Shown here piece by piece: positions 2,501-61,134 of a DNA stretch of 64,000 nucleotides. Location: assembly GCA_016199745.1 (NCBI GenBank), contig JACQFZ010000048.1, positions 1 to 64,000 of the forward strand, in the 5' to 3' direction. The notes under the pieces are model-generated. The model had not been told where the DNA came from. It ran no database searches and worked only from the letters and a program-made list of their open reading frames with translations. Position 1 is the first letter of the stretch; every line of letters starts with the position of its first letter. This stretch comes from Gammaproteobacteria bacterium. Lineage in GTDB: Bacteria; Pseudomonadota; Gammaproteobacteria; Acidiferrobacterales; Sulfurifustaceae. The position numbers were made by a program, and so were the translations under genes.

Positions 2501-3180
2501 GGGCGTGTCACCAATTAACCCATCCGCCACAATCCCAACCTCAACCCATCAACACGAGGCGAGAGCACGTCGAATGACAAGGAGATATGGACTGCGCGAT
2601 GACCAATGGGAGCGGATCAAAGATTTATTACCCGGCCAGGAAGCCCACGTCGGGGTGACCGCGAAAGACAATCGGTTGTTCGTGGAAGCGGTGCTGTACC
2701 GCTATCGCGCCGGTATACCCTGGCGAGATTTGCCGGAACGGTTTGGCGACTTTCGCGTCGTCCACACACGGTTTAGTCGGTGGGCGAAAGGCGGTGTCTG
2801 GGAACACGTATTTCGCCAGTTGGCGACAGCGGCCGATAACGAATACGCCATGATCGATGCCACCATCGTCCGCGCGCATCAGCACAGCGCCGGCGCCCAA
2901 AAAAAGCCGGGCAAACGGAAGAAGACAATCGAACCACAGAGAAAATCGGCCGGAGCAAAGGCGGTCTGACAACAAAGATTCATGCCACGGTCGATGCGCT
3001 CGGCAATCCCACCGGATTCTTCCTCACACCGGGACAAGCGTCCGATCTCGAGGGTGCCGATGTGCTGCTACCGTGCGTATTGGCCGACACCGTGATCGGC
3101 GACAAAGGGTACGATGCCGAGGCGCGGGTCATCCAGCCGTTACGCGACGCCGGCAAGACGGTGGTCATTCCGCCTGACGC
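2501..3180 (+). mobile_element. Truncated IS5-family (IS427 group) insertion sequence
   Basis: The transposase starts at ATG 2574 (RRYGLRDDQWERIKDLLPG; RAGIPWRDLPERFG) and the first frame ends at 2969. Seven A residues at 2899-2905 followed by G form a typical -1 slippery site. Slipping there leads into the second frame ([28 protein letters not shown]), the normal IS427 arrangement, so this frameshift is programmed and not damage. Homology stops near VVIPP at about 3177, where sequence of a Tn3 transposase begins. The C-terminal end with the catalytic Glu and the right inverted repeat are missing, so the element is dead. The left end is placed only roughly at gggcgtgtcaccaatta. Confidence 0.8.
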
Positions 3181-3728
3181 GCCCCATCGATTGGGAGTTA
3201 ATCGCGAATCAGTACGACGAAATGGTGAAGTACACGACGGCATTGCGGTTAGGCACCGCGGAATCGGAGGCGATCCTACGCCGCTTCACGCGCGACAACG
3301 TTCAACACCCGACGTACCGAGCGCTCGCTGAACTGGGCCGGGCGGTGAAGACGATCTTTCTCTGTCGGTATCTGCATTCCGACGATCTGCGTCGTGAAAT
3401 CCACGAGGGGTTGAATGTCGTGGAAAACTGGAACAGCGCCAACAGCTTCATCTTTTACGGCAAGGGCGGCGAGGTCGCCTCCAACCAGTTAGAGGATCAG
3501 GAGCTCTCTATGCTTGCGCTGCATTTGCTGCAGCTACATCATACCTTAATGATTCAACGCGTTCTGGTGGAAGACCGTTGGCACAAACGCCTGAAGGAAG
3601 CCAATCGCCGCGGGTTGACGCCGCTCATTTACGCCCACATCAACCCATATGGGCGCTTCGACCTCGACATGAACGAGCGCATGGCGATCGATACGGAAGG
3701 GGCAGCGGTAGCGGAGGCCGTACAATGA
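3180..3728 (+). pseudogene. C-terminal fragment of a Tn3-family transposase
   Basis: From about 3180 a frame encodes [34 protein letters not shown] and [15 protein letters not shown], the conserved C-terminal block of Tn3-family TnpA (Tn3 transposases are about 1000 residues; about 180 remain). The frame is open to a TGA at 3728 but has no start of its own because it is joined directly to the truncated IS5 element. It is a deletion scar between two elements. No resolvase or 38-bp terminal inverted repeat was seen. Confidence 0.85.
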
Positions 3729-30477: not shown

Positions 30478-31282
30478 TCAACAAATCACCGCGTCATCTA
30501 TGTCTGCTGGTTCAACAGTATCGGCTTCGATGACGTCGCGACCGTAGGCGGCAAGAACGCATCGTTGGGCGAGCTCTATCGGTCGCTGGCGCCACTCGGC
30601 GTCAACATACGAGTACGCCGCCTTGCTCGGCGGGCGTTAGTTCGAGCCCAAGAAAGAAAATCCGATGCTCGGTTTTCGTGGCGCATCGCGCTACGCGCAT
30701 CCGGCCTATGCTGAAGGGTTCGTGCTCGAATGCACCGCGCTCAAGCGCGTCTGCGAAGACATGGGGTTCGACAACGTCATCATCATGGTGCCATTCGTGC
30801 GGCGCCTGGCCGAGGCCGATCAAGTACTGGCGAAGATGGTGGAGTGCGGTCTCAAACGCGGAGAGCGGGGTCTTGAGATCTACGCCATGTGCGAGATCCC
30901 GAACAACGTCGTCTTGGTCGACGAGTTTGCCCAGCGCTTCGATCGATTCTCGATCGGATCGAACGATTTAACGCAACTGACGTTAGGCGTCGACCGCAAC
31001 TCCGCACTCGTCGCATTCGACTACGACGAGCGCGACGCGGGCGTCAAAGCCATGATCCGGCTGGCGGTCGAAGGCTGCCGGCGTAATCGGATCCACTCTG
31101 GCTTGTGTGGCCAGGCGCCGTCCGACTATCCGGAGATGGCCGAGTTCTTGGTGCATCTTGGGATCGATTCGATCAGTCTCAATCCCGACGCGGTGCTGAA
31201 GACCACGCGGCGGATATTGAAAATCGAGCAGCAGCAAGATCAAACGGCGTCGACGGACCGGGCGGCAGTATCGGTGTCGTAA
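30478..31282 (+). pseudogene. ppsA: Phosphoenolpyruvate synthase pseudogene with internal deletion
   Basis: The first part encodes YVCWFNSIGFDDVATVGGKN and ASLGELYRSLAPLG, the N-terminus of PEP synthase. After about 45 codons the frame shifts and jumps to the C-terminal PEP-binding domain: FEPKKENPMLGFRGASRY preceded by an in-frame TAG, then FSIGSNDLTQLTLGVDR and SGLCGQAPSDYP, to TAA 31282. Around 500 of the normal 790 or so residues are missing, including the catalytic His region. The C-terminal frame is open from ATG 30665 (205 aa) but would not form an enzyme. The start codon also seems lost. Confidence 0.88.
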
Positions 31283-52615: not shown

Positions 52616-53427
52616 ATGCAGCTAACCTTTCTCGGTGCCACGGGAACTGTCACCGGGTCGAAGTATCTGGTGAGCACGAGCGACAAAAAACTTCTCGTGG
52701 ACTGCGGGCTGTTCCAGGGTTACAAACAGCTACGCCTGCGCAACTGGGCGCCGTTGCCGATTGCGCCACGAGACGTTGATGCCGTCATTCTGACCCACGC
52801 GCATCTGGACCACAGCGGTTACTTACCACTGCTGGTCAAGAACGGATTCAAAGGTACGGTGTATTGCAGCGAGGCGACACGCGACCTCTGTGCAATCCTG
52901 TTGCCTGACAGCGGGGCGGGGTAGTGCTGCACCTGCGACCGGCGGGGCATCTGCTCGGCGCCGCGCTTGTTCAGTTGCGTGGCGATGGCACCACATTGCT
53001 GTTTAGCGGCGATCTCGGGCGACCGCACGATCCTATTATGGCGGCGCCGTTGGCGGTCGGGCGAGTGGATTATCTCGTCATCGAATCCACTTACGGTAAC
53101 CGACGCCACGATCCCACCGATCCCAAAGAAAAACTGGCCGAGGTTATCAACCGAACCGTCAAACGCGGCGGCACGGTTATTGTCCCGGCATTCGCGGTCG
53201 GACGCGCGCAGACGTTGATGTACCTGATTCACCTGCCGAAGGAGGCCGGCCGGATTCCCGATATCCCGGTGTTCCTCAACAGCTCTACGCTCGGCGCCGC
53301 CATGCTGAACGGCGCCGAGACCGTCAAGATTCACGGCGACTGCGGGCCGAGGTGGCGAGCATCGACAATCTCTCCGCACACGCCGACTACACCGAGATCC
53401 TCGACTCCACGATCCAAATTTGGATAA
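52616..53427 (+). pseudogene. Decayed paralogue of the beta-CASP RNase gene
   Basis: ATG 52616 opens [20 protein letters not shown], nearly identical to the intact gene at 11030. After PDSGAG the frame stops at TAG 52924, a segment present in the intact gene (HLQEEEAEYANRRG onward) is deleted, and the homology continues in another frame with RPAGHLLGAALVQLRGDGTT. A second deletion removes most of the beta-CASP region, joining VFLNSSTLGA to AAMLNGAETVKIHG. The C-terminus is scrambled. Confidence 0.9.
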
Positions 53428-53553: not shown

Positions 53554-54507
53554 TCAAAAATCAATCGCGCGATTGGCTTTCTTTTTCCGTTGTTCGCCGC
53601 GCCGATCATACGCCGCCGTCGTGCGCACGTCGGCGTGTCCGACGATGTCGGCCACGGTCTTGATGTCTTCGCCGTGATCGAGCAAGTACGAGATGAAGGA
53701 GCCGCGCAAATCATGGGGCGAAAAGCGTTTGACCCCGGTGAACGCGATCAACCGTTTGATCAGGTAATACACGGCTTGATCGGTGAGCCGTTCCTGGGTG
53801 ATGACGCCGCCTTTGCGAATACGGCAAAAGAGCGGACCGTCGCCGGCACATCGACCACCGTCGATCCATTCGTTCACCATCTCCCAGGCGCGCGCCGGTG
53901 GATAGACCAGGCGCTCTTTGTTGCCTTTGCCGAGAATGCGAATGCTGCGTTCCGAGGGATCGAGATGGGCCCGATCGAGGCTCACGACTTCCGAGCGGCG
54001 CAGTCCGCAGCCATAGAGCAACCCGAGCAAGGCGGCGTCGCGCAACCCTTGTAAGCGATCGTCGACCAAACAGTGATCGAGCAGGGCGGTGATGTCGTCC
54101 TTAGCGAGCCAGCGACGCTTCTGAACGCGGTGGCCGCGAATCGATCGGGTGTTCTTGATCCGCAGGTAACGATGGTCGCTGATAAGTTTCAGCTCCCAGG
54201 CCTGCAGCGCCACGCCTTTGAGCAACGACAACGTGGCATTGATCGTGTCGGGCGCGCAGTGATCGACGGTCAGGGCTTCCTTGGCCAACAACAACCACGG
54301 ACGATCGAAATCCCGCCAGGGAATCTGCCGCCAGTGCTCGAGTTGCAACAGCCGGGCGAAGCGATTGAGCCGCGATTGCATGACCCGCCGGCTTTGCACG
54401 GAGCCCAAGGTGGCCAGATACAGCGCGGCTGGGTTGGTCAACGCGGCGGTCTGATCACTCAGTGCCGGCATCGTGTCGGACGGCAAAACGGGAACAATGG
54501 ACGGCAT
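53554..54507 (-). CDS. Tyrosine recombinase/integrase
   Basis: The 317-residue protein has an N-terminal SAM-like DNA-binding region and a catalytic domain with Arg in GCGLRRSEVVSL, HDLRGSFIS (HxxR), the second His in VGHADVRTT and the nucleophile Tyr in TTAAYDRR. It lacks the features of XerC/XerD proper and resembles integrases of genomic islands. The neighbouring KfrA-like gene is divergent. Its att site was not found; the dif site is about 2 kb away. Confidence 0.92.
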   Translation of the reverse strand: MPSIVPVLPSDTMPALSDQTAALTNPAALYLATLGSVQSRRVMQSRLNRFARLLQLEHWRQIPWRDFDRPWLLLAKEALTVDHCAPDTINATLSLLKGVALQAWELKLISDHRYLRIKNTRSIRGHRVQKRRWLAKDDITALLDHCLVDDRLQGLRDAALLGLLYGCGLRRSEVVSLDRAHLDPSERSIRILGKGNKERLVYPPARAWEMVNEWIDGGRCAGDGPLFCRIRKGGVITQERLTDQAVYYLIKRLIAFTGVKRFSPHDLRGSFISYLLDHGEDIKTVADIVGHADVRTTAAYDRRGEQRKKKANRAIDF

Positions 54508-54565
54508 GGCCGGGGTAGCGACTTTTGGTGAACTAGGCGGAAAGTATAGTCGCTAGTTTTGAAAA

Positions 54566-54619
54566 GATACATTTACATAAGTAATATATTGATCTATTTG
54601 TCATGTAAAATAATGTATC
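54566..54619. promoter_or_regulatory. Inverted repeat in AT-rich leader of the KfrA-like gene
   Basis: Arms gatacat (54566-54572) and atgtatc (54613-54619) flank a very AT-rich 40 bp. It may be an operator of the KfrA-type protein, which normally represses its own gene. Confidence 0.4.
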
Positions 54620-54651
54620 CGTCCTACAGTACAAAATACTCGGAGACCGTC

Positions 54652-55479
54652 ATGGGCCGTATTGGCGTCAGCGAATACCAGGTTTTTCAGGCGGCGGATC
54701 GGTTGGTGGCCGATGGCGTTAAGCCATCGGTCGACACAGTGCGGCAGGAACTGGGGAACACCGGAAGCCGAACGACCATCAATAAGTACCTAAAGTCCTG
54801 GCGTGAACGACAGGCTCAACGTGAACATGCCGGCGTCAATCTCAGCGATCATTTGTTGCAGGTGTTACGAGAGCAATCCGAGATCATTCTGTTGGCAATC
54901 GAATCCACCGCGCAGGCTAAATTCGAGGCAAAATCACGAGAACATGAAGCCGCGGTGGAACAGCAGCGCCAACGGTTGAGTGAACAGGACGCCGAGGTAG
55001 CTCGATGTCGAACGCAACTAGCAGAGCTTGATGACATACGTGTTCAACAGCTCAGCGTGTTGCAACAACAGCAAGCGCAGCTAACTGATGCACGGGAAGA
55101 CAATCAATCGTTACGAGAGCGGTTGGCCAAAGAAACCGGGCGACGCGAAACGTTGGAAGGTGCGATGACTGAACAAGACCGCCAACTGGGGGCTATTCAA
55201 AAAGAATTGAAAACAATCCAGAACCGTCATGAAATTCTGACCGAGGCGCATGCCACCAAAGCGGCCGAATTACACCGGCTTCAGCAACGCGAACGCGAGC
55301 AATGCCAGCTAGTGACAGAAAGAAATGCAGAAATCAAACGTCTCCACCGAGAGCTGCGAACGGCAAAACAGAGAGGTGAGAAAGACATGAGCCGGCTGAT
55401 GACATCCGTGCGGCAGCTCGCCAAGTCACAACGTACCCAACGTGCCACTCGACGTAAGCCGGCCGCAAACAATGGATAA
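54652..55479 (+). CDS. KfrA-like DNA-binding coiled-coil protein
   Basis: The 275-residue protein has an N-terminal KfrA-type DNA-binding domain (YQVFQAADRLVADGVKPSVD; VRQELGNTGSRTTINKYL) followed by about 180 residues of coiled coil. KfrA proteins of IncP plasmids bind their own operator and form a scaffold for plasmid partition. Here it is chromosomal, next to an integrase, so it probably came with a mobile element. GGAG lies 8 nt before ATG 54652. Confidence 0.8.
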   Translation: MGRIGVSEYQVFQAADRLVADGVKPSVDTVRQELGNTGSRTTINKYLKSWRERQAQREHAGVNLSDHLLQVLREQSEIILLAIESTAQAKFEAKSREHEAAVEQQRQRLSEQDAEVARCRTQLAELDDIRVQQLSVLQQQQAQLTDAREDNQSLRERLAKETGRRETLEGAMTEQDRQLGAIQKELKTIQNRHEILTEAHATKAAELHRLQQREREQCQLVTERNAEIKRLHRELRTAKQRGEKDMSRLMTSVRQLAKSQRTQRATRRKPAANNG

Positions 55480-55539
55480 ACGCCCAGAGTCGGACCCTTT
55501 TGCTTCAGTAATTCGCGTCCACGATAGGCGCGTAAAATC

Positions 55540-56181
55540 ATGACAATGATCACGTCTCCTGAACCACCCCAACGAATCGGCGCCGCCATCGGCGAACTCC
55601 GTCGTATTAGCGGTTTAGCTTGGGATCAGCTTTGCCGTCTCTTTCAGATGGATCGGCCATCGTTTCACGCGTGGGCTAGCGGTCAAACCATGACACCCGC
55701 GGACGAAGAACGCTTGCGGCAAGTACTTGCAGCGATCCGTAGAATCGATCGTGGTGCATCGGATATAAATCGCATTGAACTGTTTACGAAATGATCCGAT
55801 GGTAGCGTTGCATTCGATCTGCTAGTCAGCGGCCAGTATGAGCAGTTCATCATGTTGATAGGTCCGCCACCGACAGCGCCCCAACGACTACGACCCGGAC
55901 CGCCCGCCGACGACGTCATTGCGGCACGCAGGCCACCTCCGCCTGCTGAGCTCGTCGGCGCTCTCCAAGATCGCGCTCACGTTGAACCGAAGGGATCGCG
56001 GATAGCAAAGAGCATGAAAAATAGATCCCGGCCGATCGCCGAGATTATGCGTGAGCATGGTTTCCCTGAGCCCACCAAAGAAGAACGCGCGGAGCGAGTG
56101 CGACGCGCTAGTCGAGTAGCAAGTCGAGAAGATGATGGCGTGGACCCGGCTAGCGATCCAGACAGTCCTGAACCAGATTAA
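55540..56181 (+). pseudogene. HTH-like gene split by one in-frame TGA
   Basis: ATG 55540 encodes 84 residues with an HTH-like part (AAIGELRRISGLAWDQLCRL; MDRPSFHAWASGQTMTPADE) ending IELFTK at TGA 55792-55794. The same frame continues with SDGSVAFDLLVSGQYEQFIM and a Pro-rich, then charged tail to 56181. The sense on both sides suggests one gene of about 213 codons. The front part may still work alone, and ATG 55852 could restart the rest. Function unknown. Confidence 0.55.
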
Positions 56182-56392
56182 AAAAGTGGTACTGAAAATA
56201 TTCCCGTACGCCCTTATTCAGCCAACAATCTCCATCGCTGCGCGAAGGCGCGCTTGAGAGCGGCGTTGGGGCAGGCGGATTGAGCAGCGCTTGGGCGTGG
56301 GACACTTTTCTTTCAACGGACGGAAGGCATAGATGGAGAACCAAATCTCCCAAAAGCGGCTGCAGGAAGAACGATGGCGGGGGATTTCGTAG

Positions 56393-56586
56393 TTTTAGTT
56401 CCTAACTTTCCGTATTTTTAGTTCGCCCGAGTAGTGTGGCCGCCAAGGATTAACACTGTTACCGCACCTAGAATCTTGTATTTAACATAACATACATTAT
56501 GCGTCATTTAGTTAATGTTCCTGCATGTCTTCTAGCCGCCGTTTGTGCCAGGCGAACTAACATATGGGCTCTTTTCGGAACTAAAA
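56393..56586. repeat. Two-block inverted repeat around the dif site
   Basis: Left arm: ttttagttcc (56393-56402) and ttagttcgcc (56418-56427). Right arm: ggcgaactaa (56551-56560) and ggaactaaaa (56577-56586). Gaps of 15 and 16 bases separate the blocks. The pattern resembles arm-type binding sites of a recombinase or another DNA-bending protein. Confidence 0.6.
56480..56507 (-). other. dif: Chromosomal dif site (XerC/XerD recombination)
   Basis: Read on the minus strand the 28-bp site comprises ATGACGCATAA (XerC side), TGTATG (centre) and TTATGTTAAAT (XerD side). Against the E. coli dif site the XerD arm matches 11/11, the centre 5/6 and the XerC arm 7/11, i.e. 23 of 28. A site of this quality normally marks the replication terminus region, though integrative elements can carry copies. 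Confidence 0.85.
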
Positions 56587-56725
56587 TTGCTCACTCGCTC
56601 ACTCCAATAAAACTTCGGATTGCATTCAAATAAAGTTTGGTAAGAAGCATTCCTTCGTAATGCGAAGGACAAAATACTCCACCGCCGGACCGAAATTATA
56701 TCCGGCGGTGGCGATCAGTCCGTCG

Positions 56726-57763
56726 TTACTTGGCCGCCCATACCGCGAAGCGTTTCTCAATCTCGTCGCCGTTATCGGTCCAGAACTGCAGGTTGTGTTG
56801 CACGGCGTTTTTCAGGTTAATCGGTGCCGTCGGTAGGTTCGCTAGATGATTGCCTTCCAACCGATTGAGCGCATTCAAGTTGGTCGGTCCATATGAGATG
56901 TTGCGCGCGTACGCAATCTGCGACTCCGGTGTGCTGGCGAACTTGATATAAGCGAGGGCGCTGTCTTTGTGCTTCGTGCCCTTCGGAATGACCCAGTAGT
57001 CGATATCGTAGATGTTGCCCGCGCGAAAATTGACTTTCAAGTTCTTGCCTTCGCGTTGGGCGGCGTCGATGCGGCCGTTGTACGCCGTGCTCATAACGAC
57101 ATCACCGGCGACCAACATTTGCGGCGGCTGCGAGCCCGCTTCCCACCATTGGATGTTCGGCTTCAGCTCGGTGAGTTTCTTGAACGCGCGGTCGACGCCT
57201 TCCGGTGTCGATAGCACTTTATAGACATCCGGCGCCGGCACACCATCCGCCATCAGCGCAAACTCGAGGTTGTAGCGTGCGCCTTTGCGCATACCGCGTT
57301 TGCCAGGAACTTTTTTGACGTTCCAGAAATCGGCCCACGTGGTCGGCGTATATTTCAAATTATCAGCGTTGAACGCCAGCACGGTCGACCACACGAACGC
57401 ACCGATGCCGCATTCATGAATCGCCGCCGGTAGGAAGGTCTTGGTATCAACCAAGCTCTTAGCATCCAACCGTTCATACAAACCCTCTTCGCAGCCGCGG
57501 CCGATGTCGCCAGACTCGACTTCAACCACATCCCATACAACGTTCTTACTGTCGACCATGGCCTTAATCTTGGCCTGCTCGCCGGCATATTCGACAACGG
57601 TTACGTTGGTTCCGGTCGTCTTGCCGAATGGTTGGATGTAGGCGGGTTTCATCGCGATGCTAACGGCACCACCGAAATTAACGACGGTGAGGTCCTTGGC
57701 AACGGCGGTGGATCCAACAACAGTGGATAGCACAACGACTACCGACTTCATGACACTTTTCAT
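56726..57763 (-). CDS. Polyamine-type ABC transporter substrate-binding protein
   Basis: The 345-residue precursor has a signal peptide (VVVVLSTVVGSTAVA/K) and a periplasmic-binding fold: LTVVNFGGAVSIAMKPAYIQ, VVWDVVEVESGDIGRGCEEG, YTPTTWADFWNVKKVPGKRG, MSTAYNGRIDAAQREG. The pattern matches the PotD/PotF-like spermidine/putrescine family. No permease or ATPase genes adjoin it, so it is an orphan component in this window. GGAG lies before ATG 57763. Confidence 0.88.
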   Translation of the reverse strand: MKSVMKSVVVVLSTVVGSTAVAKDLTVVNFGGAVSIAMKPAYIQPFGKTTGTNVTVVEYAGEQAKIKAMVDSKNVVWDVVEVESGDIGRGCEEGLYERLDAKSLVDTKTFLPAAIHECGIGAFVWSTVLAFNADNLKYTPTTWADFWNVKKVPGKRGMRKGARYNLEFALMADGVPAPDVYKVLSTPEGVDRAFKKLTELKPNIQWWEAGSQPPQMLVAGDVVMSTAYNGRIDAAQREGKNLKVNFRAGNIYDIDYWVIPKGTKHKDSALAYIKFASTPESQIAYARNISYGPTNLNALNRLEGNHLANLPTAPINLKNAVQHNLQFWTDNGDEIEKRFAVWAAK

Positions 57764-58348
57764 CGTTTTCTCCGTTTTACATGGGGATTTGACTGGACGT
57801 TGTTCACCTGTATGTTCATCAACGACAAAATGCACCGGGGCACAAGGAAAAGGCGGCGAGGCTGCTGAATGGCGATACACGTGTCACGACGATCTCCTTG
57901 TCGAAATATCGTAATAATAGTTATAAAAAATAATGCCGATAAGTGAATGATAAGAAAGACAATAAGGTATTCGTCACGTTCGAATTCTCGTCTTTCCGGA
58001 AATGGACGTTCTGCGCTAGGAATCATGCTTAGCTCGGGATACCGTCCAAGTTTTGCCCAACCAACAGGTCAACAGTAGGCTCGATTACCGGGCCAGGTAT
58101 ACAAGGAACTGACTATTGTTTCCAAGAACTGAGGAAACGCCTCCTTCATTCTTTTTGGGAAGAGTTTCCTTAGGGCCTGAGAATATTCATTTCGCATGCT
58201 TATTTTGGTACGAATAACGTCTTAATTCAGCGGCGCGTCAGGAGTTCGCTGATTGAATCTGCAGAGAACTTTGGAACCCAATTACGCGCCCCCTGCCCTG
58301 CTTGCCGCTGAGTAAACATTGCAACCTTGGTATCGTCCGGTTACAGCA
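57764..58348. other. Gene-free stretch upstream of the binding protein
   Basis: About 580 bases with no convincing gene. An AT-rich part near 57900-57960 probably contains the promoter of the binding-protein gene. A short inverted repeat with aggaaac and gtttcct arms is near 58132-58170. Nothing else was recognised. Confidence 0.5.
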
Positions 58349-58642
58349 TCATGCGGTGCCTTCTGGCTTCCATTTGGCAATCGTCTGCTCGTAGTGCTCA
58401 ATCTTCGCCTGAAGCGCCCGCGGGGTAAATCCGATCACTGTCGCCGCGAGCACCTGGTCTCCTTCACAGATTCCGAGGGCAGCGTAAATAATCCGCTTCT
58501 GGAATTCAGCGAGGGACGCATTGAGTGTTATCGGCGGCGACTTCTTGAAGAAGTCCTCCGCCATCTGTTCTTGCAGAACAGCAATGGTCTTATTCAGTTC
58601 TCGCCGCAACGCGGCGATCTCAACGCTCCTGTGACACATCAT
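58349..58642 (-). CDS. Fis-type helix-turn-helix protein
   Basis: The 97-residue protein has an N-terminal helical region and a C-terminal Fis-like HTH (KRIIYAALGICEGDQVLAAT followed by VIGFTPRALQAKIEHY). This resembles the isolated DNA-binding end of NtrC-type regulators or Fis. It follows an HTH-less EpsA-like protein by 14 bp on the same strand, so the two may act together. Confidence 0.65.
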   Translation of the reverse strand: MMCHRSVEIAALRRELNKTIAVLQEQMAEDFFKKSPPITLNASLAEFQKRIIYAALGICEGDQVLAATVIGFTPRALQAKIEHYEQTIAKWKPEGTA

Positions 58643-58656
58643 CTTCCGTGATTCGA

Positions 58657-59265
58657 TTAATGGAACTCATTCTTCCGAACGGCCAGCGTTAGGTCGGTTT
58701 TAAGTGTTATCGCGGCGCGTGCAAGCGCTGCATGAAGATGAGGGATCAGTTGGGTAAGCAGATAGCTGTGTTTTTTTCCAAGTCGCGCGGGAATGCGAAT
58801 GAAACAAAAATACGCAGCGAGTTCATCACCCATATCCGCCATACCATGAACGGCCGCGTTACGGTAATCGTGTGCACGCAAAGCATCGAGCCATGCCTTA
58901 GCACGACGATTGAGATCTATTCCAAATGCGGCTTCCACGTCATCGGCTAATTCGATCATCAGCGGCGCGCGCGATTTACACCAACGCGACACCAACAGGC
59001 GTTCGATTTGTTCGTCCATCGGATCCAACGCTTCTATCACCTTAGTGGGTAAATTGGAAAACAGTGATCGCACGGGCCGTTGGTACTTTCCTGTGATATC
59101 GGCAATGCCGCAGATAAAGCCACCGTGCGGCAGCACCTGCTGTAACCTGACATCAACACAGGTCATAAACTGCTCGATGCCTTTTATCTTTCCAAGTTCA
59201 TTAACAATATCAATGACGGCGACGTGTTCCACTGCCGTCAGGTCAGGACTGCCTGGTTCTGTCAT
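58657..59265 (-). CDS. EpsA-like sensor domain protein without HTH
   Basis: The 202-residue protein matches the N-terminal part of the LuxR-type regulator at 60316: VIDIVNELGKIKGIEQFMTC, HDYRNAAVHGMADMGDELAA and YFCFIRIPARLGKKHSYLL in both. It ends soon after LTLAVRKNEFH, where the paralogue continues with a LuxR HTH. It is therefore a natural or truncated regulator lacking DNA binding. The adjacent Fis-type HTH protein may supply it. Confidence 0.7.
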   Translation of the reverse strand: MTEPGSPDLTAVEHVAVIDIVNELGKIKGIEQFMTCVDVRLQQVLPHGGFICGIADITGKYQRPVRSLFSNLPTKVIEALDPMDEQIERLLVSRWCKSRAPLMIELADDVEAAFGIDLNRRAKAWLDALRAHDYRNAAVHGMADMGDELAAYFCFIRIPARLGKKHSYLLTQLIPHLHAALARAAITLKTDLTLAVRKNEFH

Positions 59266-59334
59266 AGCGCAGCGTTACTAACAACTCATGTGAAAATCTA
59301 TTCAACGCAAAACCACAGCTTGCATTTCTATTCA

Positions 59335-60114
59335 CTAACTCTCCGGTTTATAGATAAACACGTTCTGTTTCGCATCGTTCACCAGCACCAGCACACCGCG
59401 CGAAGGGCTGTAGCGTAGTCGGCCGAAGGTGCCGTTGGGGCTGTTGTGCACCTGGATTGTCGCCGGTACCAATCCAATGCTTCCAAATGTTGGTGGTCGG
59501 ATCGAGACATGTAGACGTCTTGGCCGCCACCCCAGGCAAAAAATTGGTCGCGTACATCCGCATACACAAATCCTGGACGCGTGCCGAGATCCGGTAGCGA
59601 ATCGCCGCTGGTCGTGATCTCGGTATAAATCGGACGCGCGTTCAAGCTGGCGGGCGACGTCAGATCCCAGCGTCGCAACACCTGCCCACCAGTTGGCTTG
59701 TGATAGAGAGCGTAGAAATGATCACGCCGGCGCACGTCGTCTCCGCTCAGCGGCATCGCGGCTGTGTGCGCGGAAGTGATACTGCGTGTTCGGAGACAAT
59801 CCTGAGAGCTGCACGCTGTGGGCGGTCGAAAGTGCCGTGTCTTCAGGCGTGTCTTGTCCGTATGACGGCATGGTGCCGTACTGCACTTGCGAGGTGGTGG
59901 ATTCGTCAGTGGTCCAGGTAATGGTTACACCAAACGCCGTAACGCCGCTCACCATGACGCCGGTAATTTGCGACGAGGTGATGTCGTTGTTAGGAGGGTT
60001 ACTGCCGTCACTACCACCATCACTCACTCCATCGTCCGATCCTCCACCGCAGGCAGAAAGCAAGCTCAATGCCGCAATGGCAACAAATCGTCGTGCGATG
60101 GTGGTTAGATGCAT
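59335..60114 (-). pseudogene. Fibronectin type III/propeller-like lipoprotein pseudogene
   Basis: ATG 60114 starts a lipoprotein (LSLLSACGGG lipobox) with a Ser/Gly linker and an FN3-like domain (ITSSQITGVMVSGVTAFGVT; STAHSVQLSGLSPNTQYHFR). Frameshifts follow near 59750 and 59560; the continuing frames encode DHFYALYHKPTGGQVLRRWD and PGFVYADVRDQFFAWGGGQD, and finally VLVNDAKQNVFIYKPES at the end. The pieces suggest a secreted or surface protein with a beta-propeller-like C-terminus, now inactive. Confidence 0.7.
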
Positions 60115-60315
60115 GCGAGTAACTCCATTGTTATTGTCAGGCGATCAGCTAGCGACCATCCGCCTCCCGTTTTGCTTCTAACCAATTTATGTCAGATGCG
60201 GTTCGCGATATACATTTGCGCGCACCAATCATCCGAACCACCAAACCGCCAAGCGGAGCTGCTCTCGCAAAAAACTATCCTTCGATAGTTTCGTTGCGCA
60301 GTGGTTGGATGCGTT

Positions 60316-61122
60316 TTATTTTTTCGGCATTTCGAGCGAAATAATTTTCAGCGCTAACGCCTTCGACACCGCGTCCGCACGATTCGATGCGTTGAGCTTG
60401 GCGAAGATTTCGCGAACGTAGTACTTCACGTTGGCCTCGCTGATCGCGAGAACGGCGGCGATCTCACGGTTGGTCTTGCCGCAATGCAACCAATGCAGAA
60501 CCTCTGATTGGCGCGCGTTCAATAATATTTTTTTGTGCTCCGCCGTTACCGGCGCCGACACGTCTTCCAACGTTGCCATCGCCCGTACCAGCGCGCTATG
60601 GAGATGCGGCGTCAAAAAATTGAGCAGATAGATTTGCTTCTTCCCTACCGTTCCCGGAATACGAATGAAGCAAAAAAAACTGGTCAATTCGCCTTGCAGG
60701 TCGGCGAGGCCGTGGGCGGCGGCATTGCGGTAATCATGTTTATGAACGTGTGCCAGCCAGGCGGTGTAGCGCTCCGAGACGCGCTCACCCAGCTGCGCGT
60801 CGACGTCACCGGTAAAATCGATCACGATGGGTTCACAACGCTCGCGCCAGCATTCGATCAGCGGGCTATCGATCGTGCCGTCCGACCGACTGACGTCATC
60901 CAGTGCCTGCCTCGGAAAATTGTGTAGCAGCAACCGATACGGCTTCATATCTTTAATGTTCGCCAGCGCGCAGGCGACGCCACCGTACGGCATGACGTCT
61001 TGTAGTGAGCCGCTAAGGCACGCAACCAACGCTTCCGATGTGTTCACCGATTCGAGATCGTCGATCACATCGATCAACGCCAGACGCTGTGACAGCGTCA
61101 GCGGAATCCGTCTATTTTCCAT
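60316..61122 (-). CDS. EpsA-like LuxR-family transcriptional regulator
   Basis: The 268-residue protein has an EpsA-type N-terminal domain (LSQRLALIDVIDDLESVNTS; KHDYRNAAAHGLADLQGELT) and a C-terminal LuxR HTH (LNARQSEVLHWLHCGKTNRE; VKYYVREIFAKLNASNRADA). EpsA proteins are associated with exopolysaccharide/PEP-CTERM loci (XrtB systems). ATG 61122 is used; a TTG at 61134 is possible. The HTH-less paralogue is 1 kb downstream on the same strand. Confidence 0.82.
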   Translation of the reverse strand: MENRRIPLTLSQRLALIDVIDDLESVNTSEALVACLSGSLQDVMPYGGVACALANIKDMKPYRLLLHNFPRQALDDVSRSDGTIDSPLIECWRERCEPIVIDFTGDVDAQLGERVSERYTAWLAHVHKHDYRNAAAHGLADLQGELTSFFCFIRIPGTVGKKQIYLLNFLTPHLHSALVRAMATLEDVSAPVTAEHKKILLNARQSEVLHWLHCGKTNREIAAVLAISEANVKYYVREIFAKLNASNRADAVSKALALKIISLEMPKK

Positions 61123-61134
61123 TGGTGTCGTCAA

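Follow-up and report, generated by a model that had tools for sequence, protein, structure and literature searches.

The dif site and its neighbourhood

The window comprises the first 64,000 nucleotides of a 309,817-base contig in a gammaproteobacterial draft genome. Near its right end, two divergent genes are followed by a 28-bp sequence resembling the dif site of Escherichia coli, which is bracketed by an imperfect inverted repeat. The features of this region are:

53554-54507, minus strand: tyrosine recombinase (Phage_integrase)
54559-55479, plus strand: KfrA_N protein, divergent from the tyrosine recombinase
56393-56427, plus strand: left arm of the imperfect inverted repeat (TTTTAGTTCC, 15 bases, TTAGTTCGCC), which may be incidental
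56480-56507, minus strand: chromosomal dif site, almost certainly, 28 bp, of which 23 match E. coli dif; the sole strong site in the draft, located at the skew change point
56480-56490, minus strand: XerD-binding arm TTATGTTAAAT, 11 of 11 bases as in E. coli; an identical arm is present in 19 of 27 loci of relatives
56491-56496, minus strand: central region TGTATG, 5 of 6 bases as in E. coli, with G where E. coli has A (dif position 17)
56497-56507, minus strand: XerC-binding arm ATGACGCATAA, 7 of 11 bases as in E. coli
56551-56586, minus strand: right arm of the imperfect inverted repeat (TTTTAGTTCC, 16 bases, TTAGTTCGCC)

dif is the spot at the replication terminus where XerC and XerD part joined sister chromosomes. 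On the minus strand, the site reads 5'-ATGACGCATAA TGTATG TTATGTTAAAT-3', that is, two 11-bp Xer arms around a 6-bp centre, which fit the consensus. It shares with the chromosomal dif of E. coli, as given in the part of PMC3025954 that lists the reference sequence, the length of 28 bp, the 11-6-11 layout, the XerD arm, five centre bases and the inner seven bases of the XerC arm. The five mismatches are confined to the outer four bases of the XerC arm (positions 1-4) and to centre position 17, where A is replaced by G. Thus, the initial annotation, which had described a 28-bp match to E. coli dif at 23 positions with a complete XerD arm and a nearly normal centre, is borne out in all three respects, the centre being TGTATG instead of TGTATA.

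Among ten genes tested between 53.5 and 63.6 kb, three have no Pfam match and two of these have no NCBIfam match either. The local tyrosine recombinase was considered as the Xer protein acting on this dif and rejected: it scores 127.8 bits against the XerC cut-off of 335.15 and 111.3 bits against the XerD cut-off of 329.6, and better XerC and XerD proteins are encoded on other contigs. A match to it at an E-value of 1e-30 or better is found in only one of 59 relatives (genome G025), and its plasmid relatives show 43.5-46.3% identity among the 25 matches listed. The TnpS/TnpT resolvase of Tn4651-group Tn3 transposons has a likewise divergent layout in the portion of PMC7157771 that describes it, which gives a lead, and a lead only, for reading the recombinase and KfrA_N genes as a tnpS/tnpT pair. 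No KfrA or TnpT gene is listed beside the related recombinase in two plasmid records, the gene tables of which are incomplete, and nothing was found that ties the pair to dif. At 54572-54609, the beginning of the KfrA_N frame contains an 18-nt inverted repeat (78%). About 50 kb from the pair there is a fragment of a Tn3-family transposase (3174-3659), which corresponds to the C-terminal part of the protein (profile positions 223-389 of 389) and is the sole such match found in the genome.

Several other observations concern the surroundings. The segment 56210-56286 on the minus strand shares 77% identity with the end of a gene for a TacA-like antitoxin; that gene is on contig C57 and precedes a GNAT acetyltransferase gene. 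The segment, next to dif, is probably a decayed remnant. The neighbouring stretch 56297-56323 shows 96% identity to positions 2079-2105 of contig C18. Two adjoining frames at 52616-53427 resemble an RNA exonuclease of the metallo-beta-lactamase fold and, judged by eye, are apparently split by a frameshift. On the other side of dif, at 58657-61134 on the minus strand, there are two EpsA-like genes (XrtB/PEP-CTERM-associated regulator), neither of which reaches the curated cut-off; for the gene at 58657-59265, Pfam gave no match. The G+C content of the contig carrying the site (C48) is 0.54-0.56 from about 50,000 to 140,000; it is 0.58-0.61 left of this section and 0.52-0.60 beyond it, and the drop starts near dif.

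Uniqueness of the site in the draft and its position at the replication terminus

The initial annotation had placed the window at the replication terminus and had suggested GC skew, a search for a second dif-like site and the location of xerC and xerD as checks. A pattern of the two arms with 17 fixed bases, a free centre and up to three mismatches would by chance occur 0.02 times in the window, as estimated from dinucleotide shuffles, and was observed twice: at the dif site without mismatches and at 30966-30988 with three. In the whole draft (4,256,067 bases in 72 contigs, rated 98% complete), the same two places and no others were recovered, although the search would miss a strongly degenerate site or one falling into an assembly gap. 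With a weight matrix derived from 27 dif loci of relatives, each distinct sequence being used once, the site scores 41.7 bits, the runner-up elsewhere on the contig 6.7 bits and the place at 30966-30988 2.4 bits; the maxima of five contig shuffles range from 2.9 to 9.3 bits. Hence the draft contains one strong site and, apart from the poor place at 30966, no second one within three mismatches; nor was a better dif found anywhere in the 72 contigs at up to three mismatches in the 17 fixed positions. The probability that the site is a chance resemblance devoid of function is negligible. Such a reading can point to the five mismatches to E. coli dif and to nothing more, and it is at odds both with the low number of matches expected in the window even at three mismatches and with the location of the site at a skew switch.

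This switch is evident at several scales, albeit on one contig rather than on a closed chromosome, with only 56 kb of the contig lying to the left of dif. When the contig is divided into 10-kb bins, five of the six within the first 60 kb have a positive GC skew and 24 of the 25 beyond have a negative one; the two bins of the wrong sign (of 31) are 30-40 kb, which is slightly negative, and 150-160 kb, which is positive. With 500-base bins, 57,000 is the best change point from plus to minus (2-lnL range 55,000-60,000, which includes the site), and a change of such strength was reached in none of 2000 permutations of 5-kb blocks. The maximum of the raw cumulative GC skew is at 55,192. We also analysed third-codon skew in open frames of at least 200 aa, of which 29 lie to the left of dif (18 on the plus and 11 on the minus strand) and 154 to the right (45 and 109, respectively). 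It shifts from -0.040 on the left to -0.115 on the right in plus-strand frames and from -0.125 to +0.010 in minus-strand frames. Since the third-codon skew of both strands shifts in the manner of a terminus, gene direction alone does not explain the change. The switch is uninformative on the polarity of dif, because a change from plus to minus looks alike from either strand. KOPS motifs (GGGNAGGG) converge on the site, with 25 of 32 oriented towards dif and seven away (p=0.002); this polarity is due to the right side, where 24 of 29 point towards the site, the three motifs on the left being one towards and two away.

The recombination machinery is encoded in the same genome, each component scoring above its curated cut-off: XerC on contig C57 (360.4 bits, NCBIfam cut-off 335.15), XerD on contig C22 (394.8 bits, NCBIfam cut-off 329.6) and the FtsK gamma domain at position 164744 of the contig that carries dif (95.6 bits, cut-off 30.6). 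The proposed placement at the terminus is thus supported by the skew change point, the KOPS polarity, the single good copy and the presence of XerC, XerD and FtsK gamma.

Two other readings take the site as a dif-like sequence of a different kind. The initial annotation had named as an alternative an element integrating through XerC/XerD, such as a filamentous phage or a genomic island, so that the site would be the attL or attR of an insertion at dif made by the host recombinases. The centre departing from the canonical TGTATA, the KfrA_N-family protein (a family named for plasmid replication regions) and the tyrosine recombinase located 1-3 kb to the left, and the drop of G+C content near the site, from about 0.60 to 0.54-0.55, would fit such an element. 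Integration through XerC/XerD would leave a second dif-like site. This reading fails its defining test, because no second good dif-like site was found in the draft: with the centre free and up to three mismatches in 17, only the 2.4-bit place at 30966-30988 was retrieved, and the 253 kb of the contig to the right of dif contain none by the weight matrix. Accordingly, the second dif-like site expected at the far end of an insert by the IMEX attachment-site definition was not found among the contigs, and none of the ten genes at 53.5-63.6 kb matches a phage structural family in Pfam or NCBIfam. The alternative is therefore unsupported, and we regard it as very unlikely. The second reading, which is extremely unlikely, takes the site for the dif of a chromid (secondary replicon) and supposes that the TGTATA dif of the main chromosome is missing from the draft. 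It draws on the rarity of the TGTATG centre and on the divergence of centres between replicons in multi-chromosome Proteobacteria, noted in the relevant part of PMC2533119, but the FtsK gamma match at 164744 lies on the same contig and an assembly rated 98% complete has no other good dif.

The site is thus almost certainly the dif of the chromosome, located at the replication terminus. It is an ordinary chromosomal dif, a normal part of the genome with one unusual centre base, because the expected skew and KOPS polarity surround it, XerC, XerD and FtsK gamma are present in the genome and no second copy suggests an element.

dif sites of relatives and the central G

Sites with at most one mismatch in the 17 positions were found in 27 of 60 genomes, and sites with at most two mismatches in 16 of the family's 20 genomes, in both cases including the genome studied here. 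In the family, three further places, in genomes G012, G015 and G017, were discounted by eye as chance matches, a proper site being present in each of these genomes as well. The loci of relatives used for comparison number 27 and come from 26 of the 59 relative genomes. In all 27, the XerC arm contains CGCATAA or CGTATAA, with the outer four bases being variable; G[CT]ATAA was demanded by the locus filter. The site described here has in common with these loci CGYATAA, the 6-bp centre and TTATGTNAAAT, a similarity that is partly imposed by the search pattern and the filter. It differs in the centre, which ends in A in every relative (24 TGTATA, two TATATA and one GGTATA). The flanks were analysed in 15 of the 26 relatives with a site, the choice being guided by the length of the contig. 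KOPS directed at dif outnumber those directed away from it in each of the 15. Skew at the scale of 13-40 kb is a weaker witness: among nine relatives with both flanks, it changes from plus to minus in six (the exceptions are G036, G044 and G046), and among six with one flank the expected sign is found in four (it is wrong in G027 and G047).

The centre was also compared across the class. In a class-wide sample of 370 genomes that includes the genome studied here, 135 contain the exact core GYATAATGTATRTTATGT, at 137 places altogether. Position 17 is A at 136 of these places, and the sole G is that of the present site. Since the exact-core pattern permits no other centre, G17 can be called rare only where the remainder of the site is canonical. 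In the sections of their study that concern dif centres, Val et al. (PMC2533119) report TGTATA in most single-chromosome beta- and gamma-Proteobacteria and two departures of Vibrio cholerae dif1 from the gamma consensus, G17 and T10. The site shares with dif1 the G at centre position 17 and differs from it at position 10, which is T in dif1 and A here, the comparison being limited to these two positions. With the V. cholerae recombinases, the same sections of Val et al. describe more FtsK-independent exchange when A17 is restored and no such rise when A10 alone is restored (PMC2533119). By analogy, a site with G17 and A10 would stay under tight FtsK control.

The inverted repeat and the proposed working of the site

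The arms of the inverted repeat around dif consist of two exact 10-base blocks each, separated by 15 or 16 bases. The centre of the repeat is 4 bp off the centre of dif, so that the bracket is nearly symmetric. An exact search of the genome for TTAGTTC and TTAGTTCG separated by 12 to 24 bases retrieved these two arms and nothing else. A block statistic that was designed once the repeat had been noticed equals 20, a value reached in none of 300 shuffles and at one of 1497 random places of the contig. Folded as DNA, the stretch gives a z-score of -2.2, with three of 200 shuffles being as good. Gapped local alignment of the 300-base flanks of dif gives a score of 16.5, not above that of the shuffles (n=100, mean 14.1, maximum 23.5). 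When the same was done for the 27 loci of relatives, only locus L025 was slightly above its own 100 shuffles. A scan with the exact arm pattern of a contig collection that may lack records of the genome studied here returned three matches, in records of Cytophagales, Prochlorococcus and Neobacillus, which are probably due to chance. The pattern searches of the genome and of the contig collection do not identify the repeat as an end of any known mobile element; it may be incidental.

The repeat and the central G could be combined into a dif with a control of its own, in which G17 would impose a stricter dependence on FtsK and the inverted repeat would be a putative site for an accessory protein shaping the synapse. 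Such an arrangement would liken the site to plasmid Xer sites, where an accessory protein takes part, but the present site is at the terminus of a chromosome. In the part of Val et al. that treats the flanks, Vibrio dif1 and dif2 have no conserved flanking motifs able to bind accessory proteins (PMC2533119). We consider this combination very unlikely.

As an ordinary chromosomal dif, the site would work as follows, with binding, strand exchange and FtsK dependence being those of the known system, from which we infer them. An odd number of crossovers would leave the sister chromosomes fused as a dimer. FtsK would then pump DNA along the convergent KOPS polarity until both copies of dif meet at the septum, where it would activate XerD bound to TTATGTTAAAT. 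XerC on ATGACGCATAA would finish the exchange across the 6-bp centre, yielding two monomers.

The finding itself is routine: dif fixes the replication terminus of this genome, and the contig therefore gains a place and a direction. The G17 centre, found at one of the 137 exact-core places, offers a natural test of FtsK dependence set by the centre outside Vibrio.
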